Origin: Gluconacetobacter takamatsuzukensis
Lineage (GTDB): Bacteria; Pseudomonadota; Alphaproteobacteria; Acetobacterales; Acetobacteraceae
Reading direction: 5' to 3'
Length of the DNA stretch: 64,000 nt
NCBI RefSeq assembly: GCF_014174275.1
Contig: NZ_JABEQK010000011.1
Coordinates: 62,001-126,000, forward strand
Part shown: positions 1 to 15,324 of the stretch, one piece after another
How the letters are laid out: each line of letters opens with the position of its first letter
Numbering within the stretch: position 1 is the stretch's first letter
Program-made: the position numbers and the translations under genes
The notes under the pieces: model-generated
What the model saw: the letters and a program-made list of their open reading frames with translations, nothing else
Databases searched by the model: none
Told to the model about the DNA's origin: nothing

Positions 1-1
1 C

Positions 2-991
2 TGCAAGAGCGGCAAGCCCGTCTCGGTCGGCCTGCTGGGCAATGCCGCCGAAGTATTCCCCGAACTCGTCCGGCGCGGCATCCGCCCGGACGGCGTAACC
101 GACCAGACCTCGGCGCACGATCCTCTCAACGGCTATCTCCCCGCCGGATGGACGCTCGACAAGGCGGAGAAGATGCGCATCACCGACCCTGCCGCCGTCG
201 AGAAGGCCGCCAGGGAGTCGATGCGCCTGCATGTCGAGGCCATGGTGGCGTTCCACCGCATGGGCATCCCGACCTTCGATTACGGCAACAATATCCGCCA
301 GATGGCTTTCGAGGCCGGGTGTGAGGACGCGTTTGCCTTTCCCGGCTTCGTACCCGCCTATATCCGCCCGCTCTTCTGCCGCGGCATCGGCCCGTTCCGC
401 TGGGCGGCGCTGTCGGGCGATCCGGAGGACATCTTCAAGACCGACGCCAAGGTCAAGGAACTGCTTCCCGACGACAAACACCTCCACAACTGGCTCGACA
501 TGGCGCGCGAGAAGATCCATTTCCAGGGCCTGCCGTCGCGTATCTGCTGGGTGGGTCTGGGAGACCGCCACCGGCTCGGCCTCGCCTTCAACGAAATGGT
601 CGCCAAGGGCGAACTCAAGGCACCGATCGTCATCGGGCGCGACCATCTCGACAGCGGCTCGGTCGCCAGCCCCAACCGCGAGACGGAAGCCATGCGCGAC
701 GGCTCCGACGCCGTATCCGACTGGCCCCTGCTGAATGCCCTGCTGAACACGGCCTCGGGCGCGACATGGGTCTCGCTGCATCACGGCGGCGGCGTCGGCA
801 TGGGCTTCTCCCAGCATTCCGGCATGGTCATCGTGGCGGACGGCACCGAGGACGCAGCCCAGCGCCTGGAGCGTGTGCTGTGGAACGACCCCGGAACGGG
901 CGTCATGCGTCACGCCGATGCGGGCTACGACATCGCCATCGACTGCGCCCACGAAAAGGGCCTCAACCTCCCCATGATCACCAAAGGCTGA
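2..991 (+). CDS. hutU: Urocanate hydratase, 3' part (5' end outside window)
   Basis: Urocanase hydrates urocanate to 4-imidazolone-5-propionate, the second step of histidine degradation, in the cytoplasm with tightly bound NAD. The frame is open from base 2; about 329 codons of a protein normally near 555 are visible, so this is the C-terminal 60 percent. Family signatures include [17 protein letters not shown] at the left edge, [15 protein letters not shown], and YIRPLFCRG near base 360-385 with the conserved cysteine next to the active site. It ends TGA at 991, only 5 bases before hutH, so the two are almost certainly co-transcribed. The missing promoter and any further hut genes lie upstream of the window. 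Confidence 0.95.
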
Positions 992-996
992 AGGCC

Positions 997-2544
997 ATGA
1001 CGCCGACACTCGTTCTCCACCCCGGTCAGCTCGACCTCGCGACGTTACGCGGTTTCGTCTTCGACGCGCCGCGCATCACCCTCAGCCCCGATACGGCCGA
1101 GACGCTCCATGCCGCCGCGCGTTCCGTCGAGCGCATCGTGGCGGGCGGGGCGGCCGTCTATGGCGTCAACACAGGCTTCGGCAAGCTCGCCAAGACGCGC
1201 ATCCCCGACGACCGCCTGCGCGATCTCCAGCGCAACCTCGTGCTCAGCCACGCCGCAGGCATCGGCAAGGCGATGCCCGAGCGCGTCGTGCGACTGATCC
1301 TCCTGCTGAAAGCCAACGGGCTGGCGCGCGGCTTCTCCGGCGTGCGGCTGGAAGTCGTGCAACTCCTTCTCGACATGCTCGATCGCGGTGTCATTCCGGT
1401 GATCCCGGAAAAGGGCTCGGTCGGGGCATCGGGCGATCTCGCTCCGCTGGCGCATATGTCCGCCGTCGTGATCGGCGAGGGCGAAGCCTTTTTCAACGGC
1501 GAGCGCCTGCCCGGCCGAGCGGCCCTGAAAGCGGCCGGGCTGGAGCCGGTCGAACTCGGCCCCAAGGAAGGGCTCGCACTTCTCAACGGCACGCAGGCAT
1601 CCACATCGCTTGCCCTTGTGGCACTGTTCGATGCCGAGCGCCTGTTTCAGGCCGCCCTTGTCACAGGCGCGCTAACGCTGGACGCCGCACGCGGCACCGA
1701 CGCACCCTTCGACCCGCGCCTGCACACGCTGCGCGGTCAACAGGGGCAGATCGAGTGCGCCGCCGTCTATCGCAAGCTCATGGAAGGCTCGGCCATCCGC
1801 GCCTCGCATCAGGTGGATGACGAGCGGGTGCAGGATCCCTACTGCCTGCGCTGCCAGCCCCAGGTCATGGGCGCGGCGCTCGACAGCCTGCGTCACGTCG
1901 CGCGCGTGCTGCTGATCGAGGCCAACGCGGTCTCCGACAACCCGATTCATTTCCCGGACACCGACGAGATGATTTCGGGCGGCAATTTCCACGCCGAACC
2001 CGTCGCCATTGCCGCCGACCTTCTCGCCATCGCGGTTTCCGAGATCGGCGCGATCGCGGAACGTCGCCTCGCCCTGCTGGTCGATCCGAGCATGAGCGGC
2101 CTGCCGCCCTTCCTCGTCAACGATAGCGGCGTGAACTCCGGCTTCATGATCGCACAGGTGACGGCCGCCGCCCTGGCATCGGAAAACAAGACACTCGCCC
2201 ACCCCGCCAGTGTGGACAGCCTGCCCACCTCGGCCAATCAGGAAGACCACGTGTCGATGGCCACATTCGCGGCCCGGCGGGTCGGGGACATCAACGCCAA
2301 CGTGCGTACCATTCTCGGCATCGAATATCTCGCCTCCGTGCAGGGCCTCGACTTCCTTGCCCCGCTGACCTCCTCCTCGCCCCTGGTGGCGGCGGCAGCA
2401 CTCCTGCGCGAGCATGTCCCGTTCTTCGCACAGGACCGGCTGTTCACGCCGGACATGGAAATTGCGGACAGCCTGATCGCCGATGGCCTCCTGACCCGGA
2501 TCGTCGCCGGCGCGCTGGCACTTCCCGGCGTCGAGGCCGCGTAA
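997..2544 (+). CDS. hutH: Histidine ammonia-lyase
   Basis: Converts L-histidine to urocanate and ammonia, the committing step of the Hut pathway. The 515-residue length is normal for the family. The motif [15 protein letters not shown] contains the Ala144-Ser145-Gly146 triad that cyclises to the MIO electrophile. Other family blocks are [11 protein letters not shown] near residue 53 and [10 protein letters not shown] and SDNPI in the C-terminal half. I chose ATG 997, five bases after the hutU stop; an upstream extension of the same frame to 766 only shadows hutU. The next gene starts 6 bases after the TAA, so hutU-hutH-hydroxyacid dehydrogenase form one operon. Confidence 0.97.
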
Positions 2545-2550
2545 GGGCTC

Positions 2551-3708
2551 ATGATCAAAAACGGCATCGACGACGGCACTTTTTTCGATCTGGCACGAAA
2601 AGCGCGCCGTCGTCTGCCGCGACTCTTCGCCGACTATATCGACGGGGGTGCACATGGGGAACGCACGCTGCATCGCAACCGCCGCGCCTTCACACAATGG
2701 GGCGTCACGCCGCGCGGGCTGCGTGACGTTTCATCCATCGACCTGACGACAACCTGCTTCGGGCGCACATGGCGCCTTCCCTTCTTTCTCGCACCAGTGG
2801 GCTTCGCGGGCATGTTCCACGCCCATGGCGAGGCCGGCGCTGCCAGGGCCGCAAGCCGGCAATCGATCGGCATGGGCGTGTCCACCTTTTCCGTCGCCGC
2901 CATGGAAACCGTGGCCGCCACCAATGCCGATCTCATGGCGCAGATCTACGTGATGCGCGATCGCGCCATCACCCGCGACATGCTGGCACGCGCGAAAGCC
3001 TGCGGCATGTCCTGCATGATCGTCACCATCGACACAGCTCTCACACCGGTCCGCGAACGCGATGTCCGCAACGGTTTCCGCCATCTCGCACGCCCGACGG
3101 TGGCGCAGATGGCCGGACTCCTGAAACGTCCCGCATGGCTGTCGGGCGCCATCACGCATGGCGGCAATACAGTCGCCAATATCGACCGCTACACGACCGC
3201 ACGCGGCGTCATGGCACAGGCGCGCGACGTCGCCGCGCAGATCGACCCGGCGCTGGACTGGAGCGATCTCGCATGGCTGCGCGATCTCTGGAACGGCCAC
3301 CTCATCGTCAAGGGCATCATGCATCCCGACGATGCCCTGCGTGCGGCAGAACGCGGGGCGGACGGCATCATCGTATCCAACCATGGCGGCCGCCAGATGG
3401 ACCCGGCACCCGGCACGCTGGACGTATTACCCGCCATTGCCGGAGCCGTGGGCGAGCGGATCGATATCATCCTCGACGGCGGCATCCGCCGGGGCGGAGA
3501 CGTCGTCACGGCCCTCGCGCTTGGCGCAAAAGCCGTCTCGTTCGGGCGCCCCTGGGCATGGGGGCTGGCGGCGCACGGCGAGCGGGGGGTGGACGCGGTT
3601 CTGGACCGTCTGGAACGCGAAGTGCGGGACGTCATGGCGCTGGCCGGACTGTGCGACATCGACGCCGTGCGCACGGCCGGGCGAGCGGCGCTCTGGCCGC
3701 TCGGATAG
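2551..3708 (+). CDS. FMN-dependent L-2-hydroxyacid dehydrogenase/oxidase
   Basis: A (S)-2-hydroxyacid oxidising flavoenzyme of the LldD/glycolate oxidase/mandelate dehydrogenase family, 385 residues with a TIM-barrel FMN domain. The catalytic base is His278 in SNHGGRQ; LIVKGI supplies the FMN-binding lysine, and DGGIRRGGDVVTALALGA is the phosphate-binding end of the barrel. The family produces 2-oxoacids from lactate-like substrates. Its place directly behind hutUH, opposite an aminotransferase and a D-specific FAD enzyme, suggests imidazole-L-lactate or a similar aromatic 2-hydroxyacid as substrate, but simple L-lactate cannot be excluded. It converges with the next gene across 15 bases, with no clear terminator between. 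Confidence 0.9.
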   Translation: MIKNGIDDGTFFDLARKARRRLPRLFADYIDGGAHGERTLHRNRRAFTQWGVTPRGLRDVSSIDLTTTCFGRTWRLPFFLAPVGFAGMFHAHGEAGAARAASRQSIGMGVSTFSVAAMETVAATNADLMAQIYVMRDRAITRDMLARAKACGMSCMIVTIDTALTPVRERDVRNGFRHLARPTVAQMAGLLKRPAWLSGAITHGGNTVANIDRYTTARGVMAQARDVAAQIDPALDWSDLAWLRDLWNGHLIVKGIMHPDDALRAAERGADGIIVSNHGGRQMDPAPGTLDVLPAIAGAVGERIDIILDGGIRRGGDVVTALALGAKAVSFGRPWAWGLAAHGERGVDAVLDRLEREVRDVMALAGLCDIDAVRTAGRAALWPLG

Positions 3709-3723
3709 GTCCGAACCAACCGC

Positions 3724-4674
3724 TCAGGCAATTTTCGGTTTCTGGGAATCCCGGATCCGGCCAATAATGTAATCCCCCGCCGAGACGGGTGGAAACAGCG
3801 TTTCCACGCCCTCGGGCAGGTTCAGGTCGCGCGGATCGACCATGGCGTCATAATCCGGGTCATAGAACGTCGCGATCGAAAGACGTTCCCTGCCCGAGCG
3901 ATTGGTCACACGGTGCATGTTGGAATTGTAGCGCCGGTTGGACCAGCGACAGAGCAGATCGCCGATATTGATGACCAGCGTTCCCGGAATGGGCGGCGCA
4001 GGCACCCACTGGCCATCCACCCCCTGCACGTCCAGGCCGCCGGTTCCATCCTGCCAGAGCAGCGTGATGCAGCCATAATCCGTATGCGGCGCGACACCGA
4101 ACTGGTCCTTTTCGCGCTCCGGCGGATGCGGCGGATACCAGATCGCCTGCGTTCTTTGCAGCGGACGAACGTATTTGGACACGAAGAAATCCGGCGCGAT
4201 CCCCAGCGAACAGGCCACGGCGCGCAGCAGATGCTGGCCACAGATCCCAGCCGCCTCGAAATAGGCCTCCATCGCCTCGCGGAACGCCCGCCGATCCGCG
4301 GGCCACTGGTTCGGACCGCGGAGAGGCTGCCCGGCCAGCACGACGGGGTCATCCGCAGGCAGCTCCAGACCGATCTGGTAGAACTCCTTGTAATCCGGAT
4401 TCTCCGCGCCATACATCGTCGTGCGATTGAGGGCATTGAACCCGCGCACAGCCTCTTTCGGCTTGCAGGCAAGCTTTTCTTCCATCGGTGCATGAAAGAA
4501 ATCGAGTGCCTCATCATGGGCGCACCGGATCAGCTCTTCCGGAATACCGTGATTGCGAATGTAGCAGAAACCCGACGTGGAAAAAGCGTCACTGATCAGG
4601 GCGCCGGTCGCGGCATAATCGCCGCCACGCGCCGGACCAAGGTCGATGATCGGAAGATAAGCGGCCTCACTCAT
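3724..4674 (-). CDS. Isopenicillin-N-synthase-family Fe(II) dioxygenase
   Basis: A 316-residue non-heme iron oxygenase of the IPNS/2OG-Fe(II) fold. The N-terminal DIOX_N part (residues 6-110) contains SGFCYIRNHGIP. The C-terminal double-stranded beta-helix carries the facial triad His197-x-Asp199 (PHTDYG) and His254 (MHRVTN), with Arg264-x-Ser266 (RLSIATF) for the co-substrate carboxylate. Such enzymes hydroxylate, desaturate or ring-close small acids and amino acids. It is the last gene of the - operon that begins with the HisC-like aminotransferase at 7789, 18 bases after hutD. The substrate is unknown; the neighbours suggest an imidazole-containing acid. Confidence 0.88.
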   Translation of the reverse strand: MSEAAYLPIIDLGPARGGDYAATGALISDAFSTSGFCYIRNHGIPEELIRCAHDEALDFFHAPMEEKLACKPKEAVRGFNALNRTTMYGAENPDYKEFYQIGLELPADDPVVLAGQPLRGPNQWPADRRAFREAMEAYFEAAGICGQHLLRAVACSLGIAPDFFVSKYVRPLQRTQAIWYPPHPPEREKDQFGVAPHTDYGCITLLWQDGTGGLDVQGVDGQWVPAPPIPGTLVINIGDLLCRWSNRRYNSNMHRVTNRSGRERLSIATFYDPDYDAMVDPRDLNLPEGVETLFPPVSAGDYIIGRIRDSQKPKIA

Positions 4675-4692
4675 GAATTGCCCTCATCGAAA

Positions 4693-5238
4693 TCAGGTTG
4701 CGTGAAGAACAGCCGCGACCAGACATCCCGGCCCTCCATCAAGGGATACGGAGATCGGCTGCGCCGCCATCTGTCCCGTGGCAATCGCACCGGGAACGAT
4801 GCTCCGGGTCCCTGCCTCGACACGCCACGAGCCGGAAAGCGGCAGGAGAAAGAAACGCACGCCGGACGGCAGCGTAAACGGATCGCGGTGACATGCGAGG
4901 TCCGCCTGCGCGCCGATTTCCGCCATCAGGTTGAAAGCCTGCACCGCATGGCCATGGCAGCATGCCGATACGGCCGCCTCGCCATCAAAGCGGACGATCT
5001 CGCCCGGCACCTGAAGGCAAACCGGGTCCGGCGACAGACCATGCAGCGTCAGCCGCCCCTCCGAGGCCAGTGCAAGGCGACGCTTCAGCCCGGGAAACGT
5101 GGAAAACGCGCCATCGACGTCAATATCCGCCAGACTGACCCGCCAGCCCGAGCCGGCCGCGATCTCGCGCGTCATGCCACGTCCGTTGCGCCACGGGCGA
5201 GCGGGAAAGGACGTCACGGGCGAGACCACGACCGTCAT
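4693..5238 (-). CDS. hutD: HutD/Ves family cupin
   Basis: A 181-residue protein of the HutD/Ves bicupin family, found with histidine-utilisation genes; in Pseudomonas it has been proposed to tune hut expression, perhaps by binding a pathway intermediate. Recognisable blocks are PWRNGRGMTREI (residues 15-26), WRVSLADIDVDGAFSTFPG (about 32-50) and RFFLLPLSGSW in the C-terminal half. Its start overlaps the stop of the FAD dehydrogenase by 4 bases (ATGA), showing translational coupling. Its presence in the same operon as the aminotransferase and dehydrogenase ties that operon to histidine metabolism. Confidence 0.85.
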   Translation of the reverse strand: MTVVVSPVTSFPARPWRNGRGMTREIAAGSGWRVSLADIDVDGAFSTFPGLKRRLALASEGRLTLHGLSPDPVCLQVPGEIVRFDGEAAVSACCHGHAVQAFNLMAEIGAQADLACHRDPFTLPSGVRFFLLPLSGSWRVEAGTRSIVPGAIATGQMAAQPISVSLDGGPGCLVAAVLHAT

Positions 5239-6626
5239 GACGCGAGAGGCGGCAGCATCTTGCCAGGATTGAGAATATTGTTGGGATCAAGCGCCTTCTT
5301 GATCGTACGCATGATATCGAGTGCAACCTCATCGTGCTCATCGGCCATGAACTCCATCTTGGCCAGCCCCACACCATGCTCGCCACTTGCCGACCCGCCG
5401 AGAGACAAGGCGCGAGCGATCAGCTTCCGGTCGAGTTCATGGGCTTTCTCGATCCCGTCCGCCCCCGGCGGCACAAGCATGACCGTATGAAAATTTCCGT
5501 CACCGATATGGCCAACGATGGGCGCCGTGATGCCCGAGGCTTCGATATCGCTCTTCGCCCCGAGAATCATGTCCGTCAGGGCCGAGATCGGCACGACGGC
5601 ATCGGTGGAAATACCCGTATAGCCCGGCCGATAGGCCAGGCAGGCCCAATAGACGGCATGGCGCGCCTTCCACAGCGCGGCCCGCTCCTCGAACTGCGTG
5701 CTCCACTGGAAGGCCGAGCCGTTATTTTCCGCGACGATGGCTTCAACCGTCTCGATATGCTCGCGCACCGACGCCGGACCACCCGCGAACTCGAAGAACA
5801 TCGTGGGCACAGAACGATAGCCCTCCAGCTTCGAATAAGCGATGCAGGCATCCATCTGCACGTCGTCGAGCAGTTCCATGCGCCCGATCGGCACACCCAT
5901 CTGCATCACCTGCACCGCCGTCTCGACGCAGTCCGCCAGCGTCTCGAACTGGCAGACGGCGGCGGCCATCATCTCGGGAATGCCATGCAGCCTTAGCTGC
6001 ACCTCGGTGATGAGGCCAAGCGTCCCTTCCGAACCGATCATGAGATGGGTCAGATCATAGCCCATGGCCGATTTGCGCACGCGACGGCCGACCCGCATGA
6101 CACGCCCGTCCGCCAGCACGACGGTCAGGCCCAGGACATTCTCGCGGATCGTGCCGTACCGCACCGCCCCGGTGCCCGATGCGCGCGTCGCGCACATGCC
6201 ACCGATCGTCGCCTCCCCGCCCGGATCGACGGGAAAGAACAGCCCCTCGTCACGCAGATAGGCATTGAGCGCCTGCCGGGTGACTCCGGCCTGCACGCGG
6301 CAGTCCAGATCGCCCACATTGACCTCGAGCACCGCCGTCATGCGTGAGAGATCGACGGAAATCCCCCCCGCAACCGCATTTAGCTGCCCTTCCAGGGAGG
6401 TACCGCCGCCAAAGGCGATGACCGGCGCGCGATGGGCATTGCAGATCTTCAACGCGGTGGAAACCTCATCCGTACTCTCGGCAAAGACCACCGCATGCGG
6501 GAAATGCTGCGCGTGATAGCCTTCCCCATGGGCGTGCAGTTCGCGCACGGACATGTTACGCGACAAGCGGTCCCCGAAATGCAGCGCCAGTTCCGCAATG
6601 GCGGCTTCGATCCTGTCCGTGCTCAT
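5235..6626 (-). CDS. FAD-linked D-2-hydroxyacid dehydrogenase (GlcD/D-LDH type)
   Basis: A 463-residue flavoprotein of the FAD_binding_4 plus FAD-oxidase C-terminal family, which includes glycolate oxidase GlcD and cytochrome-type D-lactate dehydrogenase. The FAD-binding motif is VIAFGGGTSLEGQ around residues 69-81, followed by DPGGEATIGGM. The C-terminal part holds IVGHIGDGNFH and GEHGVG, the metal and substrate histidines. It oxidises D-2-hydroxyacids to 2-oxoacids, passing electrons to the respiratory chain. With the FMN enzyme at 2551 it gives the island both stereospecificities, and the aminotransferase 8 bases upstream suggests that the 2-oxoacid is then aminated. Confidence 0.9.
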   Translation of the reverse strand: MSTDRIEAAIAELALHFGDRLSRNMSVRELHAHGEGYHAQHFPHAVVFAESTDEVSTALKICNAHRAPVIAFGGGTSLEGQLNAVAGGISVDLSRMTAVLEVNVGDLDCRVQAGVTRQALNAYLRDEGLFFPVDPGGEATIGGMCATRASGTGAVRYGTIRENVLGLTVVLADGRVMRVGRRVRKSAMGYDLTHLMIGSEGTLGLITEVQLRLHGIPEMMAAAVCQFETLADCVETAVQVMQMGVPIGRMELLDDVQMDACIAYSKLEGYRSVPTMFFEFAGGPASVREHIETVEAIVAENNGSAFQWSTQFEERAALWKARHAVYWACLAYRPGYTGISTDAVVPISALTDMILGAKSDIEASGITAPIVGHIGDGNFHTVMLVPPGADGIEKAHELDRKLIARALSLGGSASGEHGVGLAKMEFMADEHDEVALDIMRTIKKALDPNNILNPGKMLPPLAS

Positions 6627-6634
6627 GATGTCTG

Positions 6635-7789
6635 TCAGGCCTCCACGGTTTCTTGTGCGGCGACACTCTCAAGGACGACAGAAAGAACCGCAAGAAAGCG
6701 TTCGTTTTCTTCGGGCAACCCAATGCTCACACGCGTCCAGTTCGTGTAGCCCGTCTCCTTCCATGGCTTGACGATCACGCCATGGCGCAGAAGACGCTCG
6801 GCAAGCTCACCGGACGACACGGCGGTGCGGAAAAACAGGAAATTGCCCAGAGACGGCGCAACGGCCAGACCCAGCCTCTCCAGCCTTTCCCGCACCGCTT
6901 CGCGGTCCCGCACCGTCCGCTCGACGCCTTGGCGGACATGCTCCATGCCCTGCAAGGCCCCGATGGCAGCAAGCTGTGCGGCGATATTGGTATTGAACGG
7001 ATCCCGCACCGTGCCCAGCGTGCGGGCAATCTCTTCGCAGGAGGCGACGGCATAGCCGATACGAAGTCCCGCCAGCCCGTAAGCCTTGGAAAATGTCCGC
7101 AGAACGATCCAGGGACGACTCTGGGCACGCAGGATCTCGCGGGCCTGAGGATAGGCCGGGTCGATCTCGGCATATTCGCGATAGGCTTCATCCACGACGA
7201 TCAGGCAATCCTGCGGGCACGCATCGATGAGCGCACGCAGATCGGCCTCGCCCATCATACAGCCAACAGGATTGGATGGATTGGCAAAGATCAGCATCTT
7301 GAGCGGCTTCGATACCGCCTCGATCAGGGCGGTCAGATCGAATGCGCAATCTCTGGTCACGGGCACAGCCTCGACCACGCCCCCCATCGCCTCGGCATCC
7401 AGAATATGCAGCCCGAATGACGGGACGACCGTCACCACCCGATCTCCCGGCGAGACATAAGCCTCCGGAATCATGCGGATGATCTGCTCGGAGCCATTGC
7501 CCAGCACGATCCGCGCCTCGGCTTCTCCCAGTTCCGCGGCAAGCAGGCTGCGCAGCTTCACATCGGCCTCGGGATACAGCGCGACCTGCTCCACCAGACC
7601 GGCCAGCGCGGCCTTGACGCCCGGCGGCGGTCCATAGGGATTTTCGTTGCTGCCGAGCTTCACCACGGAAGCCACCCCATATCGCGCCTTGACGGCCTCC
7701 GTGCCCAACCCCGCATTATAAGGCGGCAACCGCGCGATTTCCGGGCGACATGCAATCGGCGTGTGCAAAGACGGGGGGGCGGACGGCAT
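6635..7789 (-). CDS. Histidinol-phosphate aminotransferase-like PLP enzyme
   Basis: A 384-residue fold-type I aminotransferase of the HisC family. Visible motifs are SNENPYGPPP (47-56), NPSNPVG (170-176), Asp200 for the pyridine nitrogen and the PLP lysine Lys235 in TFSKAYGLAG. I chose ATG 7789 because AGGAG lies 8 bases upstream; the frame stays open to 8260 only as an unsupported extension. It leads a - operon with an FAD D-hydroxyacid dehydrogenase, HutD and an oxygenase rather than histidine-biosynthesis genes. A catabolic role interconverting imidazolepyruvate and histidine is therefore more likely than biosynthesis; aromatic aminotransferase activity is another possibility. The site at 7810-7823 lies in its short leader. 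Confidence 0.88.
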   Translation of the reverse strand: MPSAPPSLHTPIACRPEIARLPPYNAGLGTEAVKARYGVASVVKLGSNENPYGPPPGVKAALAGLVEQVALYPEADVKLRSLLAAELGEAEARIVLGNGSEQIIRMIPEAYVSPGDRVVTVVPSFGLHILDAEAMGGVVEAVPVTRDCAFDLTALIEAVSKPLKMLIFANPSNPVGCMMGEADLRALIDACPQDCLIVVDEAYREYAEIDPAYPQAREILRAQSRPWIVLRTFSKAYGLAGLRIGYAVASCEEIARTLGTVRDPFNTNIAAQLAAIGALQGMEHVRQGVERTVRDREAVRERLERLGLAVAPSLGNFLFFRTAVSSGELAERLLRHGVIVKPWKETGYTNWTRVSIGLPEENERFLAVLSVVLESVAAQETVEA

Positions 7790-7809
7790 GGCCGTATCTC
7801 CTGTGCAAT

Positions 7810-7823
7810 CACGTATATACAAG
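7810..7823 (-). promoter_or_regulatory. HutC-like operator before the aminotransferase operon
   Basis: Read on the - strand the site is CTTGTATATACGTG, with the core GTATATAC at 7813-7820. This fits the GTnTAnAC half-site pattern of HutC-subfamily GntR repressors and the CTTGTA..TACAAG form described for Pseudomonas HutC. It sits about 20 bases before the ATG at 7789, where bound protein would block transcription. No GntR gene is visible here. Confidence 0.55.
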
Positions 7824-7925
7824 CACAGGAATACGCAGAGGTCGAGCATGATCGAAACGTTTTCGCATGTTACGATGAGACATATCGACACGAAACAAAA
7901 AGTGCGCCCTCGTTTCGAAAGACGA

Positions 7926-7954
7926 TTGACCTCTCTTGTACAGACAACATAGGC
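7926..7954 (+). promoter_or_regulatory. Promoter with embedded HutC-like operator (PhyH/ABC operon)
   Basis: TTGACC at 7926-7931 is a good -35, and ATAGGC (7949-7954) lies 17 bases downstream where a -10 is expected. CTTGTACAGACAAC (7935-7948) sits between them and resembles the HutC operator form CTTGTACATACAAG. Over 36 bases it matches 26 positions, without gaps, of the promoter at 12658, including exact conservation of the -35 to operator distance. Confidence 0.6.
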
Positions 7955-7992
7955 TCGAAGCTGGTTTCCGCCATGCAGGAGTTGCCAGGACG

Positions 7993-8808
7993 ATGTCATC
8001 GACCGAACTGACGCCTCTCTCGGCCTCGCAGATCGCGGCCTTCCGCCGCTATGGCGCCGTGCTGCTGCGTGGCGCGTTCGCCCCCTGGGTGGACACATTG
8101 CGCGCCGGGATTGACCGCCTGATGGCCGATCCCAGCCCTTTGGAACGCTCTTACAAGCCCGAAGGCTCCGCACCCTTCTTCCAGGACCTGTGCAACTGGC
8201 AACGCATTCCCGAGTTTCGGACCTTTGTGGAACGTTCCGATATCGGCCTGCTCGCCGCACAGCTCATGGGCGCCCATCAGGTCCGGTTCTTCCATGACCA
8301 TGTGCTGGTCAAGGAACCCGGCACATCCCTGGTGACGCCATGGCATCAGGACCTGCCCTATTACTGCGCTCGGGGGCCGCAGACAGTCAGTTTCTGGATC
8401 CCGCTCGACCCCGTTCCCGCAGCCAACGCGCTGGAATGTGTGGCGGGCTCCCATAAATGGGGTCGGGACCACAAGCCCATGCGCTTTGACGGCACCCCGC
8501 TCTATGCCGATGACGACAGCAAACCGATGCCCGACATCGATGCCAACCGGGAAAATTACCGCATTCTTGCATGGGACATGGCACCCGGCGACGCCGTGGC
8601 GTTCGATTTCGGGACCATACACGGTGCTGCCGCAACGATCGGGGCAATCGACCGCCGCCGCGTCTTCTCCGCGCGCCTTGTCGGAGACGACGCCCGTTTC
8701 GCCGACCGGGGCGGCAAAGGCTCACCACCCTTCTCCCATCTTGCCCTCCAGGATGGCGATCCGCTCATCGGCGACGATTTTCCCGTCCTGCATCCCGCGC
8801 GCGCGTGA
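7993..8808 (+). CDS. Phytanoyl-CoA dioxygenase (PhyH) family oxygenase
   Basis: A 271-residue Fe(II)/2-oxoglutarate oxygenase. The iron triad is His118-x-Asp120 (WHQDLPYY) and His210 (GTIHGA), with a downstream arginine (RRRVFSARL) for 2-oxoglutarate. PhyH enzymes hydroxylate carbons next to carboxyl or amide groups; EctD is a relative. I chose ATG 7993, with AGGA just upstream, because the longer frame starts inside the operator. The stop overlaps the GTG of the ABC binding protein by 4 bases, so the oxygenase leads a transport operon. This suggests that it acts on the imported compound; the substrate is not known. Confidence 0.85.
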   Translation: MSSTELTPLSASQIAAFRRYGAVLLRGAFAPWVDTLRAGIDRLMADPSPLERSYKPEGSAPFFQDLCNWQRIPEFRTFVERSDIGLLAAQLMGAHQVRFFHDHVLVKEPGTSLVTPWHQDLPYYCARGPQTVSFWIPLDPVPAANALECVAGSHKWGRDHKPMRFDGTPLYADDDSKPMPDIDANRENYRILAWDMAPGDAVAFDFGTIHGAAATIGAIDRRRVFSARLVGDDARFADRGGKGSPPFSHLALQDGDPLIGDDFPVLHPARA

Positions 8809-9707
8809 CCCTGTCCCCCCTCTTCTCCGCGCTGGCCATATCTGCCGGCCTCCTGTCCCAACCCGCCGTGGCGGGTTGTCTCGACAATGTCCGGGCAGCC
8901 GGCGTCATGCGCGTGGGCAACGGCCTGCTCGGCGCGCACCCCTCGCTCTGGCAGGATCGCGACGGCGTCTATCACGGGATCGACGCGGACATCCTTCAGG
9001 AACTGACGCGCCGCATGAACCTGCCGCGTTCGGAGTTCATGATCACCGAATGGTCGACCATGGTGCCGGGCCTCAAGGCCGGACGGTGGGACATCGTCCT
9101 GTCGGACGTAAACATCACCCAGGAACGTCGGGTGATGGGGCACGTCCTGTTTTCGTCGCCCTATTTCATGCTGTACGATTATATCATCGTACCCGAGAAT
9201 TCGCCGATCCACTCCCTTGCCGACATGAAAGGCAAGATCATCGGCTCGGTTCTCGGCACCAACGATTCCGCCACGGCGCATCGCCTTGTGGAGCACGGCA
9301 TCGGCGCGGCCGTCGCCGATTACGACACGTTCGGCGATCCGTTCCTCGCGCTGCATAATGGCCAGATCGATGCGGTCGTTGTCGACCAGGGTACGCTCCA
9401 CGCCCAGCAGGCGCATTTCAAGGGGCTGCGCACCGTCGGCGGCCCGGTTTTCTACACACCCAAGCCGCGCTGGGCCACGGCGGAAGCCGGCGCCTCCTAT
9501 CGCCTCGGCAGCGAGGGCGTGGTTGTGCCCGAGCACTGCCCCGACCTGCTCGCGGCCGTCAACGTCGCACTGGACAGTATGCGGGAAGATGGCACGATCA
9601 GAACGATCCTCAAGCGTTACGGCGTGTGGGAGCCGCAGCAGGATCACCTCATCAAGACGCCCCCCGCCCCGCCGGACGAAAAAATCGGAACCGGCGAAAA
9701 AGGTTGA
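8805..9707 (+). CDS. Amino-acid-type ABC substrate-binding protein
   Basis: A 300-residue periplasmic binding protein of family 3 (SBP_bac_3), the type that binds polar amino acids, histidine among them. The GTG start overlaps the PhyH stop (GTGA). Residues 1-24 form a hydrophobic signal sequence ending PAVAGC; VAGC fits a lipobox, so Cys25 may be lipidated. Family landmarks include VMRVGNG, GIDADILQELTRR, SDVNITQERR and GSVLGTNDS. The C-terminal tail is proline- and lysine-rich. Permease and ATPase genes follow at once. Given the operator and hut neighbours, the ligand is probably histidine-like. Confidence 0.88.
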   Translation: MTLSPLFSALAISAGLLSQPAVAGCLDNVRAAGVMRVGNGLLGAHPSLWQDRDGVYHGIDADILQELTRRMNLPRSEFMITEWSTMVPGLKAGRWDIVLSDVNITQERRVMGHVLFSSPYFMLYDYIIVPENSPIHSLADMKGKIIGSVLGTNDSATAHRLVEHGIGAAVADYDTFGDPFLALHNGQIDAVVVDQGTLHAQQAHFKGLRTVGGPVFYTPKPRWATAEAGASYRLGSEGVVVPEHCPDLLAAVNVALDSMREDGTIRTILKRYGVWEPQQDHLIKTPPAPPDEKIGTGEKG

Positions 9708-9716
9708 GCCTGCCGT

Positions 9717-10427
9717 ATGTATAATTTCTTCTTTTTCGAGGTTCCCGAACACCTGCCGTTCCTTCTCAAGGGCGCGCTGGTCACGATCGAACTTTCACTC
9801 ATCTCGATGGTTCTCGGCACCGCTCTGGGCTTTTTCCTTGCTATCGGGCGCCTGTCGTCCCGGCGCCTGCTTCGCCTGCCGATGGACATTTTCGTCGAAA
9901 TCATGCGTGACACGCCGCTGATCGTGCAGCTTCTGCTCATCTATTTCTCGCTGCCTGAAGCCGGGATCGTCCTCAGCGCGTTCTGGGCCGGCATTGCGGG
10001 GCTGACACTCAATCTGGCAGCCTATCTCTCCGAAGTGTTCCGGGCCGCCATCTCGGCGGTCGATCCGGGCCAGAAGGCCGCCGCCATCTCGCTCGGCATG
10101 TCGCCCGTCGCCGTCTATCGACGCGTCGTCATTCCCCAGGCCGGCCTGGCCGCCCTCCCCACGCTCGGCGGTTATTTCATTGCCCTGCTCAAGGACTGTT
10201 CGCTCGTCTCGTTCATTTCGGTCAACGAGTTGCTGCGCCACGCGACGATCGTCATTTCCGACACGTTCGACAGCATGAACACCTATATCATGGTGGCGAT
10301 CATCTATTTCGTGATGAGCTTCGTCAGCGCACGCATCATCCGTCACATCGAGGTCCGGCTGGCACCCACCAACCGGCGCGGCACGATCAGCGTCCCTCTG
10401 ACCATGGACAAGGAGGGCGCACGTTGA
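9717..10427 (+). CDS. Amino-acid ABC transporter permease (HisMQ type)
   Basis: A 236-residue inner-membrane permease with about five hydrophobic segments, typical of the HisM/GlnP family. The EAA loop is visible as the segment around AAAISLGMSPVAVYRRVVIPQA (residues about 120-141), which contacts the ATPase. Only one permease gene is present, so it probably works as a homodimer. It starts 9 bases after the binding-protein stop and overlaps the ATPase start, which is part of the same tightly packed operon. Confidence 0.9.
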   Translation: MYNFFFFEVPEHLPFLLKGALVTIELSLISMVLGTALGFFLAIGRLSSRRLLRLPMDIFVEIMRDTPLIVQLLLIYFSLPEAGIVLSAFWAGIAGLTLNLAAYLSEVFRAAISAVDPGQKAAAISLGMSPVAVYRRVVIPQAGLAALPTLGGYFIALLKDCSLVSFISVNELLRHATIVISDTFDSMNTYIMVAIIYFVMSFVSARIIRHIEVRLAPTNRRGTISVPLTMDKEGAR

Positions 10428-11203
10428 CCTCCTTCTCGCCATCCTCTCCCGTCCTGCTGGTACGCCAGCTTCGCAAATCCTTCCGCGGCGCACCCGTCCT
10501 CAAGAGTGTCGACCTGGCCATCCACCAGGGCGAGATCGCCTGCCTGATCGGGCCGAGCGGCGCCGGCAAATCGACGATCCTGCGCTGCATCAACTTCCTC
10601 GAACGCCCCGATTCCGGCGAGATCACCTTTTTCGGCGAGCGCCTGTGCTCGGAAGATGGAAACATCTTCCACATCGCGCCGGAACGCACCCTCCAGCATG
10701 CCCGCGCCCGGATGCCGATGGTGTTCCAGCACTTCAATCTGTTCTCGCATCGCACGGTCATCGGAAATGTCATGGAAGGACAGATGGTCGTCCTGCACCG
10801 CAATAGGGACGAGGCGCGAGACCGCGCCCGCGCCTGCCTCGCCCGGGTCGGCATGCTGGAACGCGCCGAGTTCTACCCCGACCAGCTTTCCGGCGGCCAG
10901 AAACAGCGCGTGGCGATCGCCCGCGCACTGGCTATGTCTCCAGCCCTCATCCTGTTCGACGAACCGACAAGTGCGCTCGACCCGGCACTCGTGCAGGAGG
11001 TGCAGGGCGTGATGCGCGATCTGTCGGCCGAGGGCATGACCATGCTGATCGTCACCCATGACATGCGTCTCGTGAAGAGCATCGCGACGACGATCCATTT
11101 CTGCGCCGACGGCCATATCGCCGAAAGCGGATCGCCCGCGCTTCTCTTTGGCGACACAGCCCCGTCCCGCATCCAGTCCTTCATGGACGCGGCCGCACAT
11201 TAA
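10424..11203 (+). CDS. Amino-acid ABC transporter ATP-binding protein
   Basis: A 259-residue ABC ATPase of the HisP/GlnQ class. Walker A is GPSGAGKS (43-50), the Q-loop lies in MVFQHFNLFSHRT, the signature is LSGGQKQR near residue 155, Walker B is LILFDEPTSALD, and the switch histidine is in VTHDM. The start is TTG 10424, supported by AAGGAGGG at 10410-10417 and a 4-base overlap (TTGA) with the permease stop. It powers the importer encoded just upstream. Confidence 0.93.
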   Translation: MTSFSPSSPVLLVRQLRKSFRGAPVLKSVDLAIHQGEIACLIGPSGAGKSTILRCINFLERPDSGEITFFGERLCSEDGNIFHIAPERTLQHARARMPMVFQHFNLFSHRTVIGNVMEGQMVVLHRNRDEARDRARACLARVGMLERAEFYPDQLSGGQKQRVAIARALAMSPALILFDEPTSALDPALVQEVQGVMRDLSAEGMTMLIVTHDMRLVKSIATTIHFCADGHIAESGSPALLFGDTAPSRIQSFMDAAAH

Positions 11204-11246
11204 GCACCATGCCGCCCCCCTTCCCGAGACTTCGACGCAGGTGAAC

Positions 11247-12635
11247 ATGACCGAGTGCCCGACCATGACCGTCCCCCATCATCTCCCGGAAGCAGGGGTG
11301 GAGTTCCAGACGATCTACCCCGTGGCAGCCTCCGAGCGTCACGGGCGGGCGAAGGATCTGTTCGGTCTGTGGTTCGGCGCGAACATGACCATGCTCACCG
11401 TGACCACAGGCGGAGTGATGCGCGGCACCTTCCATCTGACGCCCCTCACCGCACTGGTCGCCGCCATCGTCGGCAATCTCGTCGGGGGTCTTTTCATGGC
11501 GCTCCATGCCGCCCAGGGGCCGCATCTGGGCATTCCGCAGATGGTGCAGTCCCGTGCGCAATTTGGCATGCTCGGCGCCGCTCCGATGACGGCGCTGATC
11601 GTCATCATGTTCCTCGGCTTTTCGGCATCCAACCTCGTCCTCGGCGCCCAGGGCCTGTCCACGATCGTTCACGGACTGGATGGCACGCCGGGCATGGTCG
11701 CCGTAGCCCTGCTCTCGCTCGCCCCGGCGGTCCTCGGCTACCGCGCCATCCACAGCGCCACACGCCTCGCCGCGTTTTTATGCGGCGGGGCCGTCTTCGC
11801 CTGTCTCGGCGTCGCGTTCATGAGCGTCCCGCATACCGCCGCGTGGTGGCTCTCCGATGGCGATGACACGATCCCTGGTTTTCTCGGGGCCATGTCCATC
11901 GCCGCGCTATGGCAGATCGCATACGCCCCCTACGTCTCGGACTATTCGCGCTATCTGCCCAGCAGCAGGGCCGGAGAGCGTCAGGCTTTCCATGCAACCT
12001 ATTGGGGCTGCGTTCTGGGCTCCTTCATCGCCATGCTTGTCGGCGTCGTGACGGGCGCAAACGTCACGACGGTCCTGACGCGCGCCTTTGGCGCATGGGG
12101 CGCCCCGGTGCTCGGCATCCTTTCGCTTGGCATCATCGTCGCCAACGCCATGAATCTCTATTGCGGCGCGCTTTCCTCCATCACGGTCTTCCAGACGGTC
12201 GTGCCATCAAGACATTTCGGCCGTGGCTGGAGAATCGGCGTAACGACCGGCCTCCTCATCGTCTCGCTGGTCGTCGCGATCGCGATGGCTTCACAGTTCG
12301 ACGCCGCCTACGCGGGTTTTCTGGAATTGCTGATGGCCATCATGGTGCCATGGTCCGCCATCAATCTGGTCGATTATTATATCCTGCGCCACGGCAGCTA
12401 CGATATTCCCTCCTTCTTCGCCGCAGACGGTGGCATCTATGGCCGCTTCAACATCCCGGCGCTCGCGGCCTATGTTTTTGGCCTGGTGGTCCAGATCCCC
12501 TTCCTGGCCAACGCGCTGTACGAAGGCCCTGTCGCAAGATTTTTCGGGGGCGCCGATCTGTCATGGGTCTTCGGCCTGTCCCTGACGGGCCTCGCATACG
12601 CGGCGGCCGTACGTCTCGCACCGAAATCCACCTGA
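11247..12635 (+). CDS. NCS1 family permease (cytosine/purine-type)
   Basis: A 462-residue membrane protein with about twelve hydrophobic helices, matching nucleobase-cation symporter 1 (CodB/HyuP-like). Landmarks are FGLWFGANMTMLT in helix 1, YAPYVSDYSRYLP in the middle and VPWSAINLVDYYILR near the end. Members carry cytosine, allantoin, hydantoins or other small heterocycles. ATG 11247 was chosen over the upstream frame at 11148, which overlaps the ATPase, and over ATG 11265. As the last gene after the ABC operon it would give a second uptake route for an imidazole-type compound. Confidence 0.85.
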   Translation: MTECPTMTVPHHLPEAGVEFQTIYPVAASERHGRAKDLFGLWFGANMTMLTVTTGGVMRGTFHLTPLTALVAAIVGNLVGGLFMALHAAQGPHLGIPQMVQSRAQFGMLGAAPMTALIVIMFLGFSASNLVLGAQGLSTIVHGLDGTPGMVAVALLSLAPAVLGYRAIHSATRLAAFLCGGAVFACLGVAFMSVPHTAAWWLSDGDDTIPGFLGAMSIAALWQIAYAPYVSDYSRYLPSSRAGERQAFHATYWGCVLGSFIAMLVGVVTGANVTTVLTRAFGAWGAPVLGILSLGIIVANAMNLYCGALSSITVFQTVVPSRHFGRGWRIGVTTGLLIVSLVVAIAMASQFDAAYAGFLELLMAIMVPWSAINLVDYYILRHGSYDIPSFFAADGGIYGRFNIPALAAYVFGLVVQIPFLANALYEGPVARFFGGADLSWVFGLSLTGLAYAAAVRLAPKST

Positions 12636-12791: not shown

Positions 12792-15245
12792 ATGCAAATA
12801 ATGCCATTATCGAAATTATGCCTGTTCTCCACCATGCTCATTTCGATCGGTACGGCAGCAGCCTCCGCGCAGACCGATGCTTCGACGAAAGCCGGAACCG
12901 CTGCGAAGCACAGCCCGGTCGCCCAGACCACGAAGACACAGGCCGCCCCCGCCCCGACGAAACCTCCCGCGTCCGCGCAGACGCCGGCGATCTATCTCAG
13001 CTCGACGTCCGAGACCTACGACGTCCGGGCCCCGCACATCACGCGCGGCGCGCTGGTCACGGTCAGCCAGAAGCTTCTCTCGCAGGCACCCGCCGGCACG
13101 AATCCGCTGAAAGTCCTCTCGCAGCTTCCCGGCGTCATGTTCCAGTCGGCCGAACCACAGGGCATCGACATCTGGTCCCAGCAGCTCTTCATGCATGGTT
13201 TCCAGCAGCAGGAAATCGGCTTCACGCTGGACGGCATGCCCCTCGGCGAACAGTCGCTGCGCAATTACAACGGCCTGAATACGCTCCTCGCGATCTCGTC
13301 CGAAAACGTCGCACGCATCGACGTGTCGCAGTCTGCCGGCGCCGAAGAGGTTGCCTCCACAAGCAATCTCGGCGGCTCCCTGGCCTATGTCTCGCGCGAT
13401 CCATCGCACAAGCTGGGCGGCACCATCAGCCAGGGCTTCGGCAGCTATGCGAATTACCACACGTTCCTGCGCTTCGACAGCGGCGACCTGAACCGGACCG
13501 GAACCCGCTTCTACACATCCTATAGCCGCCAGGACGGCCAGATCTGGAAAGGCACCGGCGACCAGTTCGTCCAGCAGGTCAACGCAAAGCTCATCCAGCC
13601 CCTCGGCGCCGAGAGCTTCCTCTCCGCCTATTTCGACTGGGCGGACGAACATCAGTTCTCGACCCCCGACGCCTCTCCCGAAGTCATCCAGAAGGTCGGC
13701 TACAACGTCACGAACTACTATAACGGCAAGCAGAGCGGCCTTCAGGCCGCCATCAACGCCGCAAACGGCATTTTCCCGTCCTCGTTCGCAGGCCTGGAAG
13801 ACCCCGAGGATTCCGCTTATTACGACGCGACCCTCAACAGCGCAGATTACATGGGCGGCATCCGCGCCCATCTGCAACTCACGGACCACCTCCTGTGGGA
13901 CACGACGGCCTATGGACACGGCGAAACCAACCAATCCACATGGACGACACCCTACTACCCATCCCCCAATGGATCGCCTCTTTCGGAACTGAGAAAGGCA
14001 CCCGCGATCCAGCGTTTCGGCATCCTGTCACGTATCCATTATGATACCGAAAATAACCAGCTCGGCGGCGGCGTGTGGTACGAGAACAACAATTACCGTT
14101 CTCCCCAGTATGATTTCTCAATGCCAAATATCGTCGACGGCAAGCTCACTTCGGTCCTGCCCAATCCGCTGGATTATTGGAAGAACCCGTTCGCGGAAAT
14201 CTTCAATCAGGACTACAACACCAATACGTTCACCGCTTTCGTTCAAGATACCTATCATCCGATCGAGCATCTCGCGCTGCATTTCGGTTTCAAATCCGTT
14301 CTCAGCACGACGCGCGTCGGCAACGGCTATGCCAATCCCGATTATTATGGCGCAGGAACGCAGCTCGCCAGCGGCGTCGGCCTGACCACCGCAAAGCCCT
14401 TTCTGCCGCATATCAGCGCGGACTGGCACTTCATGAAACATAACGAGCTTTTCTTCGACATTTCCGAGAATGTTCATACCTACGCGCAATGCGGATACAA
14501 GCTGTGCGCCTCACCCTTCGCCGTCACGCAAGGCGCCTTCGATGCCGGAAAATCGTCCTTCCGGCCGGAAACGGACTGGACCTACGCGGTCGGCTATCGC
14601 TATTCCAGCGAACGCGTGGGCCTGTCGCTCTATGGCTACCGGACCAACTTCAATAACCGTCTCCAGCAGGTAACCTCCGGTTCCGCGGTCAATCCGTTCT
14701 CGACAGTGGCCAATGTCGGCGGCGTAACGATGAACGGCGCGGATGCCGCGCTGACCCTCATGCCGATCCGCAACCTGATGTTCACCAACAGCTTCAGCTA
14801 TAATCACGCGACCTACGACAACAACATCACCGAAGCCGGCACCGTCTACCATCTCAAGGGCGCGCAAATCGTCAATTACCCGCGCTACATGTACAAGACG
14901 CGCCTGTCCTATGACTGGAACGGCCTGACCGCCTATATCGACGCGAGCTACAACAGCAAGCGGAATTTCAGCTATACGGGCGACGTGAAAGCGCCGGCCT
15001 ACTGGCTCTCCAACCTCGGCATCCAGTACAACCTCACCAGGCTGAAACCCGTCCAGCGGAGCATCCGGTCGGTCAAGGACCTGACACTGTCCTTCAGCGT
15101 GGCCAACCTGCAGAACAACCACTACATCGCGACGATGGGCGAAAACGGCAACCCGCTGAACATAGACAGCGGCGCCTTGGCCTATCAGTCGTTCCTGGTC
15201 GGCGCACCGCGCATGTTCTTCGGCTCGCTGACCGCCAATTTCTGA
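12792..15245 (+). CDS. TonB-dependent outer-membrane receptor
   Basis: An 817-residue receptor. Residues 1-26 are a signal peptide ending ASAQ. A long Ala/Pro/Thr/Lys-rich linker follows, then the plug (about residues 70-215, with PLKVLSQLPGVMFQS, QQEIGFTLDGMPLG and ARIDVSQSAGAEE), then a 22-strand barrel ending in phenylalanine (LTANF). It would bring a scarce or bulky substrate across the outer membrane using TonB/ExbBD encoded elsewhere. Its promoter carries the same operator as the upstream transport operon, so a histidine-derived or imidazole ligand is more likely than a siderophore. A strong terminator follows. Confidence 0.9.
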   Translation: MQIMPLSKLCLFSTMLISIGTAAASAQTDASTKAGTAAKHSPVAQTTKTQAAPAPTKPPASAQTPAIYLSSTSETYDVRAPHITRGALVTVSQKLLSQAPAGTNPLKVLSQLPGVMFQSAEPQGIDIWSQQLFMHGFQQQEIGFTLDGMPLGEQSLRNYNGLNTLLAISSENVARIDVSQSAGAEEVASTSNLGGSLAYVSRDPSHKLGGTISQGFGSYANYHTFLRFDSGDLNRTGTRFYTSYSRQDGQIWKGTGDQFVQQVNAKLIQPLGAESFLSAYFDWADEHQFSTPDASPEVIQKVGYNVTNYYNGKQSGLQAAINAANGIFPSSFAGLEDPEDSAYYDATLNSADYMGGIRAHLQLTDHLLWDTTAYGHGETNQSTWTTPYYPSPNGSPLSELRKAPAIQRFGILSRIHYDTENNQLGGGVWYENNNYRSPQYDFSMPNIVDGKLTSVLPNPLDYWKNPFAEIFNQDYNTNTFTAFVQDTYHPIEHLALHFGFKSVLSTTRVGNGYANPDYYGAGTQLASGVGLTTAKPFLPHISADWHFMKHNELFFDISENVHTYAQCGYKLCASPFAVTQGAFDAGKSSFRPETDWTYAVGYRYSSERVGLSLYGYRTNFNNRLQQVTSGSAVNPFSTVANVGGVTMNGADAALTLMPIRNLMFTNSFSYNHATYDNNITEAGTVYHLKGAQIVNYPRYMYKTRLSYDWNGLTAYIDASYNSKRNFSYTGDVKAPAYWLSNLGIQYNLTRLKPVQRSIRSVKDLTLSFSVANLQNNHYIATMGENGNPLNIDSGALAYQSFLVGAPRMFFGSLTANF

Positions 15246-15266: not shown

Positions 15267-15302
15267 CCTGGGCGCGTCCATCAAACGCGCCCAGGTTTTT
15301 TT
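15267..15302 (+). terminator. Rho-independent terminator after the TonB receptor
   Basis: CCTGGGCGCGT (15267-15277) pairs perfectly over 11 bases with ACGCGCCCAGG (15285-15295) across a 7-base loop, followed by seven T residues (15296-15302). This is the clearest terminator in the window and closes the operator-controlled TonB unit. Confidence 0.92.
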
Positions 15303-15324
15303 GACCCAAGAAGGTCCTGAATGC

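Follow-up and report, generated by a model that had tools for sequence, protein, structure and literature searches.

The 64,000-nucleotide window analysed here (Gluconacetobacter takamatsuzukensis, GCF_014174275.1, contig NZ_JABEQK010000011.1, positions 62,001-126,000, forward strand) opens inside a histidine utilisation (hut) cluster, and the genes adjoining hutU and hutH form a recurrent module which we propose to be a side branch, under HutC control, that feeds histidine degradation. In this explanation, which as a whole we consider reasonably likely, the starting compound would be a 2-hydroxyacid resembling histidine, with imidazole-lactate the likeliest candidate. A flavin mononucleotide (FMN)-dependent enzyme would oxidise its L isomer and a flavin adenine dinucleotide (FAD)-dependent enzyme of LDHD type its D isomer, both to imidazolepyruvate. 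A HisC-like aminotransferase would then aminate imidazolepyruvate to L-histidine, to be degraded by HutH, HutU and later HutI, HutF and HutG. ATP-binding cassette (ABC), NCS1 and TonB proteins would import imidazole compounds, and two 2-oxoglutarate (2OG)/Fe(II) oxygenases would convert additional imidazole compounds so that they can enter this route. Passage from 2-hydroxyacid through 2-oxoacid to histidine is the best reading of the gene set and its predicted activities, and imidazole-lactate is the simplest histidine-like hydroxyacid that would fit it; we infer the substrate, stereochemistry and direction of the route, and the transport and oxygenase roles, from sequence.

The gene set is laid out as follows. 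hutG, hutF, hutI and hutC lie upstream of the window on the same contig. The FMN enzyme gene is on the same strand as hutH and begins 6 bases past its stop, and a consecutive minus-strand run descends from 7789 to 3724. The PhyH, ABC transporter, NCS1 permease and TonB receptor genes diverge from the HisC-like gene at the head of that run.

1-991, plus strand: hutU, 3' part (the gene starts upstream of the window), 88-98% identical in four relatives
997-2544, plus strand: hutH, histidine ammonia-lyase (TIGR01225, 700 bits against a cut-off of 539)
2551-3708, plus strand: FMN-dependent 2-hydroxyacid dehydrogenase/oxidase family enzyme, expected to be L-specific (PF01070, 419 bits)
3724-4674, minus strand: isopenicillin-N-synthase-like 2OG/Fe(II) oxygenase, hut-linked (PF14226 and PF03171)
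4693-5238, minus strand: HutD (PF05962, 84.5 bits)
5235-6626, minus strand: predicted FAD D-2-hydroxyacid dehydrogenase, LDHD type (FAD_binding_4 and FAD-oxidase_C; mouse LDHD 8jdc, E 5e-130)
6635-7789, minus strand: HisC-like class I/II aminotransferase, PRK05166 type (TIGR01141, 279 bits; PRK05166, 480 bits; start chosen at 7789)
7812-7821, no strand: predicted HutC operator CGTATATACA, 1 mismatch
7937-7946, no strand: predicted HutC operator TGTACAGACA, 1 mismatch
7993-8808, plus strand: PhyH-family 2OG/Fe(II) oxygenase (PF05721, 102 bits; closest solved structure MysH)
8766-9707, plus strand: ABC transporter substrate-binding protein, family 3, start approximate (PF00497; conserved)
9717-10427, plus strand: ABC transporter permease (68-93% conserved; name judged from sequence and position)
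10424-11203, plus strand: ABC transporter ATP-binding protein (71-86% conserved; name judged from sequence and position)
11148-12635, plus strand: NCS1-family permease, start approximate (PF02133, 143 bits)
12792-15245, plus strand: TonB-dependent receptor following the transporter genes (TIGR01783, 70 bits, under the cut-off of 223.5)

An earlier note on this DNA had proposed that an FMN enzyme directly behind hutUH, an FAD enzyme and a HisC-like aminotransferase with HutD convert both isomers of imidazole-lactate to histidine under Hut control. Every gene that it named was found in its place; its list fell short of the complete set, omitting the 3724-4674 oxygenase, the PhyH oxygenase and the ABC, NCS1 and TonB transport genes.

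We then asked how the module is regulated. The HutC operator consensus, as given in PMC12977541, is TGTA-N2-TACA. The 3.78-Mb genome has a single exact copy, located ahead of hutU, and 118 sites when up to one mismatch is allowed. At that threshold, the window and 17 kb upstream of it contain four sites: that of hutU, two in the gap between the HisC-like and PhyH genes, and an unrelated one at 39567. When this 203-bp gap (7790-7992) was shuffled with its dinucleotides preserved, at least two sites were reached in 28 of 20,000 shuffles. The corresponding gap holds at least one operator in all 13 named acetic acid bacterial loci (L047-L054, L056-L060), and an exact one in nine. The Hut control assumed by the earlier note is well supported by these sites, HutC binding being predicted from them. 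Against its generality, the consensus site was not found in five of six Roseomonas-like hut loci (L101, L103-L106), nor in Sphingosinicella hut promoters. HutC regulons of Proteobacteria, in the text of PMC5343134 that was covered, already include HutC, HutD, COG1457-family (NCS1-like) permeases and TonB receptors, all shared with the present module. Unlike that module, however, they contain no hydroxyacid enzymes or oxygenases in the same text, and the only HisC mentioned there belongs to the histidine biosynthesis operon, for which co-regulation is reported in two species.

Conservation of the layout was examined in a family sample of 150 Acetobacteraceae genomes. The order hutG-hutF/hutI-hutC-hutU-hutH-FMN/oxygenase-HutD-FAD-HisC/PhyH-ABC-NCS1 is repeated in four of the nine loci fetched around FMN enzyme matches; these four hold the best matches (58-83% identity, three other genera), and hut genes are absent from the other five (L042-L046). 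A scan of genome contigs based on the oxygenase yielded 23 loci, of which eight from named acetic acid bacteria keep the layout (Brytella, two Komagataeibacter, four Asaia and Acetobacter garciniae), with no NCS1 match in Asaia W19. The two sets overlap, the Brytella and Asaia lannensis genomes being in both. Five further Acetobacter hold the module genes in another arrangement (in the three followed over a longer stretch, L117-L119, the block has the opposite orientation, which brings its TonB gene to face FMN-hutH-hutU), and the remaining 10 loci contain parts at most. Such recurrence of gene order indicates that the layout is not due to chance. Copies of the TonB receptor, 79-91% identical and mostly partial, adjoin the module in eight acetic acid bacterial loci (L047-L054). 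Five of the 150 genomes contain the hut-type FMN enzyme (above 490 bits, against 324 for the next match), and the same five contain the closest oxygenase (above 680 bits, against 435 for the next match); all five carry the full set. hutH passes its cut-off in 72 of the 150. In a separate search, the FMN enzyme directly follows hutH in all 11 acetic acid bacterial genomes, a set that had been picked for carrying the oxygenase, and is not next to hutH in two sphingomonads.

The FMN enzyme has an FMN_dh domain, and hut copies keep Y29, Y133, R168, K254, H278 and R281, which we take to be the Tyr/Tyr/Arg/Lys/His/Arg active-site set of the family. It falls below both LldD cut-offs (284 against 550 for NF033901, 323 against 376 for PRK11197), as does its Novosphingobium counterpart (312 and 340, respectively), and five neighbouring FMN paralogues pass the LldD cut-off. 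FMN enzymes from 11 hut loci group together in a single clade (SH-aLRT 97) with F113 and T165, where the five paralogues have V113 and P165. A class-wide search for the hut-type enzyme (E ≤ 1e-95) matched 20 of 385 genomes, with nothing above 357 bits besides this genome, against 414-768 bits for members; a search of plasmids at 1e-85 gave no match. Enzymes of the FMN and LDHD-type flavin families act in the oxidising direction.

The closest solved structure to the FAD enzyme is mouse LDHD, whose catalytic Arg/His/His/Glu/His are all matched (R322, H373, H380, E416 and H417), and the enzyme scores below the GlcD cut-off (TIGR00387, 321 against 568). It thus resembles mammalian mitochondrial LDHD, an FAD enzyme of D-2-hydroxyacids, in having five identical catalytic residues (PMC10589216). 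The mammalian enzyme differs in that, according to the same paper, neither L isomers nor substrates with hydrophilic side chains are used by it, and in its pocket residue W351, which is replaced by Y/F here. The HisC-like protein passes the TIGR01141 cut-off marginally (279 against 276.6 bits) and falls short of that of the PRK05166 equivalog (480 against 540); another HisC encoded on contig 7 of the same genome scores higher on TIGR01141 (294). HisC proteins of six hut- or HutC-linked sets share 43-61% mutual identity and are 29-35% identical to that other HisC. Relatives on plasmids were found in 140 records; six neighbourhoods were read, four of them hut- or HutC-linked and two not. In two loci (L205:7980-9092 and L208:7980-9077), a PRK05166-type gene annotated as histidinol-phosphate transaminase is clustered with HutC, a hisD-like gene and a PotD-type transporter and is preceded by HutC-like sites, and the NCBI name may be wrong there. 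The present set suggests that those PRK05166-type aminotransferases so named that are HutC-linked are catabolic enzymes.

Differently built clusters in other lineages echo the same logic. In Novosphingobium nitrogenifigens, an oxygenase, an LDHD-type enzyme, HutC, an amidohydrolase, NCS1, a HisC-like protein and an FMN enzyme are encoded together on a contig other than that of the hut cluster (L188). This cluster has its own HutC (263 bits against a cut-off of 220) and a one-mismatch operator before HisC; in a quick tree its LDHD-type enzyme lies on a long branch outside the acetic acid bacterial clade, and its FMN enzyme is near the hut clade. In Caballeronia sp. SBC1, HutH, HutC and an ABC transporter accompany an operon that runs oxygenase-FAD enzyme-HisC, the oxygenase being its first gene. 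The FAD enzyme there is 34% identical to that of the window, and no FMN enzyme was seen within the 19 kb read. An Enterobacter plasmid (L204:4818-14371, NZ_CP058155.1) carries hutG, hutI, hutC, hutF, hutD, an ABC transporter and a run hutH-hutU-HisC-FMN enzyme-iron-containing alcohol dehydrogenase (ADH); insertion sequences lie next to the operon. The same last five genes are found on a Klebsiella plasmid (L203). In Escherichia coli, the HisC-FMN-ADH stretch was matched in 28 of 5426 genomes (over at least 80% of its length in 22), all 29 places being on plasmids. The enterobacterial operon thus shares with the window the Hut set with HutC, HutD, a PRK05166-type HisC and an FMN hydroxyacid enzyme, but contains no FAD D-enzyme or oxygenase within the 23 kb read and ends in an iron-containing ADH. 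Its FMN enzyme is 40% identical to the window enzyme and belongs to another branch (95%). Since the FAD enzymes of Novosphingobium and Caballeronia and the plasmid FMN enzyme come from other branches, recruitment or replacement of flavin hydroxyacid enzymes happened more than once. The clusters combine a shared aminotransferase type with flavin 2-hydroxyacid enzymes of differing origin, under HutC and in most cases with HutH close by. Such a combination fits a route in which a histidine-like hydroxyacid is oxidised and then aminated to histidine. In Sinorhizobium meliloti and Shinella, HutC is also clustered with such a HisC, with operator-like sites before HisC; no flavin hydroxyacid enzyme is annotated near these two clusters.

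The two oxygenases are distributed differently. Of the 17 Acetobacteraceae that score best for the 3724-4674 oxygenase, 11 carry it less than 10 kb from hutH. Among the remaining six, hutH was not matched in one genome and is located on a separate contig in five; in one of these five (L113), genes resembling hutF and hutC adjoin the oxygenase. Oxygenase genes within or beside hut genes were seen in Roseomonas-like Acetobacteraceae (L101-L106, a label given by eye), in Azospirillum (L194) and in Sphingosinicella (L063), where the oxygenase adjoins hutU and the stretch read likewise contains no hydroxyacid enzyme. In the Azospirillum plasmid hut cluster, an exact HutC site lies 100 bases before the oxygenase, and no hydroxyacid enzyme is present in the stretch read. 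On plasmids generally, oxygenase relatives were found in 23 records, of which four were fetched, two hut-linked and two not. In one further locus (L111, genome G014; 851-1798 and 11297-12249), an oxygenase relative was seen by eye near agmatinase-type ureohydrolase-like and ABC transporter genes, as for guanidino compounds. Outside acetic acid bacteria, PhyH is beside hut genes in one locus (L104) and otherwise has other neighbours. Its plasmid relatives matched 23 records; among the eight loci fetched (five annotated with full flanks, two ending at a record edge and one unannotated), no hut linkage was found. In three plasmids, PhyH relatives lie kilobases from ethanolamine/amine, carnitine/Rieske or formaldehyde genes, two of these (L196 and L198) involving carnitine dehydrogenase and Rieske genes, or formaldehyde-oxidation genes. 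Because linkage to hut genes extends further for the 3724-4674 oxygenase than for the hydroxyacid enzymes and PhyH occurs mostly with other neighbours, the module probably handles more than imidazole-lactate, and the set suggests that a hut-linked 2OG oxygenase family acts on some imidazole compound. An AlphaFold model of the 2OG oxygenase had a mean pLDDT (predicted local distance difference test) of 42 and was not used, and the papers listed in a search on methylhistidine demethylation included nothing relevant.

Several observations weigh against the imidazole-lactate route. Neither oxygenase is needed to convert a hydroxyacid to histidine, and in six of the 11 oxygenase-hutH associations in Acetobacteraceae the hut cluster shows no hydroxyacid enzyme over the stretch read, the only part of these genomes searched for one; five of these six lack a HutC-like consensus site. 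Mouse LDHD accepts hydrophobic and not hydrophilic side chains, imidazole-lactate not being among the compounds mentioned in the text of PMC10589216 that was covered. Two HisC relatives in Rieske clusters without hut genes are 41-47% identical to the HisC proteins of the six sets, which are therefore not a hut-only group. The F113/T165 pair is also present in two non-hut FMN enzymes (A. garciniae and G123), and so is not strictly hut-specific; Novosphingobium shares it with the acetic acid bacteria, and it is missing from the enterobacterial plasmid FMN enzyme.

What, then, are the alternatives? The oxygenases may be central, the hydroxyacid enzymes processing their product, with the true food being imidazolepropionate or an N-methylated or betaine form of histidine that would be hydroxylated or demethylated. 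This is unlikely but a serious contender: no other accessory part is linked to hut genes as widely as the 3724-4674 oxygenase, Caballeronia included, and the amine, carnitine and formaldehyde neighbours of PhyH point the same way. On the other side, PaIPNS, the closest natural solved relative of this oxygenase, has no known function according to PMC12329707, and the enterobacterial set shows no oxygenase in the stretch read. One specific form of chemistry, in which the hut-linked 2OG/Fe(II) oxygenase alpha-hydroxylates imidazolepropionate to D-imidazole-lactate, from which the FAD and HisC-like enzymes make histidine and HutH urocanate, is in our view improbable, even though the Caballeronia order oxygenase-FAD enzyme-HisC equals its order of reactions. 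Imidazolepropionate is a gut-microbial product of histidine, and this chemistry, if true, would amount to an oxygen-dependent route for its removal.

A more mundane explanation, to which we give little credence, is that the flavin enzymes are ordinary L- and D-lactate (or glycolate) dehydrogenases which simply have hut genes as neighbours and use the same promoters. In five of the 11 genomes searched (this genome, K. xylinus, A. thailandicus, A. syzygii and A. pomorum), no family member apart from the hut FMN enzyme gave a strong match, so that this enzyme might also serve lactate. The FAD enzyme pocket resembles that of common relatives: W351 of mouse LDHD is replaced by Y/F (position 326), as in 24 of 26 non-hut relatives. 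This change therefore carries no information on substrate, and we rejected the pocket as evidence of it. On the other hand, the genome has a second LDHD-type gene, LldD genes that pass the cut-off coexist with the hut enzyme in Asaia krungthepensis, Asaia W19, A. cibinongensis and Novosphingobium and differ from it by V113/P165, and the pairing with HutC and HisC recurs using other flavin enzymes. Finally, the aminotransferase might run from histidine to imidazolepyruvate, for histidine disposal or nitrogen exchange, since it belongs to the class I/II family and aminotransferases are reversible. Both flavin enzymes would then remake the oxoacid, and HutH and HutU are under the same predicted HutC control, which makes this direction very unlikely. 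Overall, the logic set out by the earlier note, from hydroxyacid to oxoacid to amino acid to HutH, is supported and is echoed in the Novosphingobium, Caballeronia and enterobacterial plasmid clusters; it is incomplete, because two oxygenases belong to the unit.

By their titles, two papers of Coote and Hassall (Biochem J 1969, 111:237; 1973, 132:409) describe degradation of imidazolyl-lactate in Pseudomonas acidovorans and P. testosteroni, so that the route itself appears there in biochemical form. The earlier note knew of no described gene set of this kind. That statement holds for the open literature searched, which misses most subscription journals: it yielded no gene set in which flavin enzymes seem to cover both isomers. 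The 1969 title names a nicotinamide-nucleotide oxidoreductase, whereas both candidate oxidising enzymes of the window belong to flavoprotein families; the 1973 title names the L compound, whereas the window has identified genes for flavin enzymes probably serving both isomers. The pathway of these authors includes a histidine-2-oxoglutarate aminotransferase, for which the HisC-like gene is a candidate only. For a degradation known, by title, for more than 50 years, the window set and related assemblies in four lineages now provide candidate genes and a candidate regulator.

Two neighbouring genes were also noted. An acetylornithine deacetylase-type gene (window 15301-16494; PRK07522, 477 bits against a cut-off of 412) immediately follows the TonB receptor and was not counted in the module, as the neighbours of the TonB gene differ in three Acetobacter. 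A further HisC-like aminotransferase lies about 10.7-11.9 kb upstream of the window (C11:50098-51096), the start of which resembles, by eye, a twin-arginine signal.

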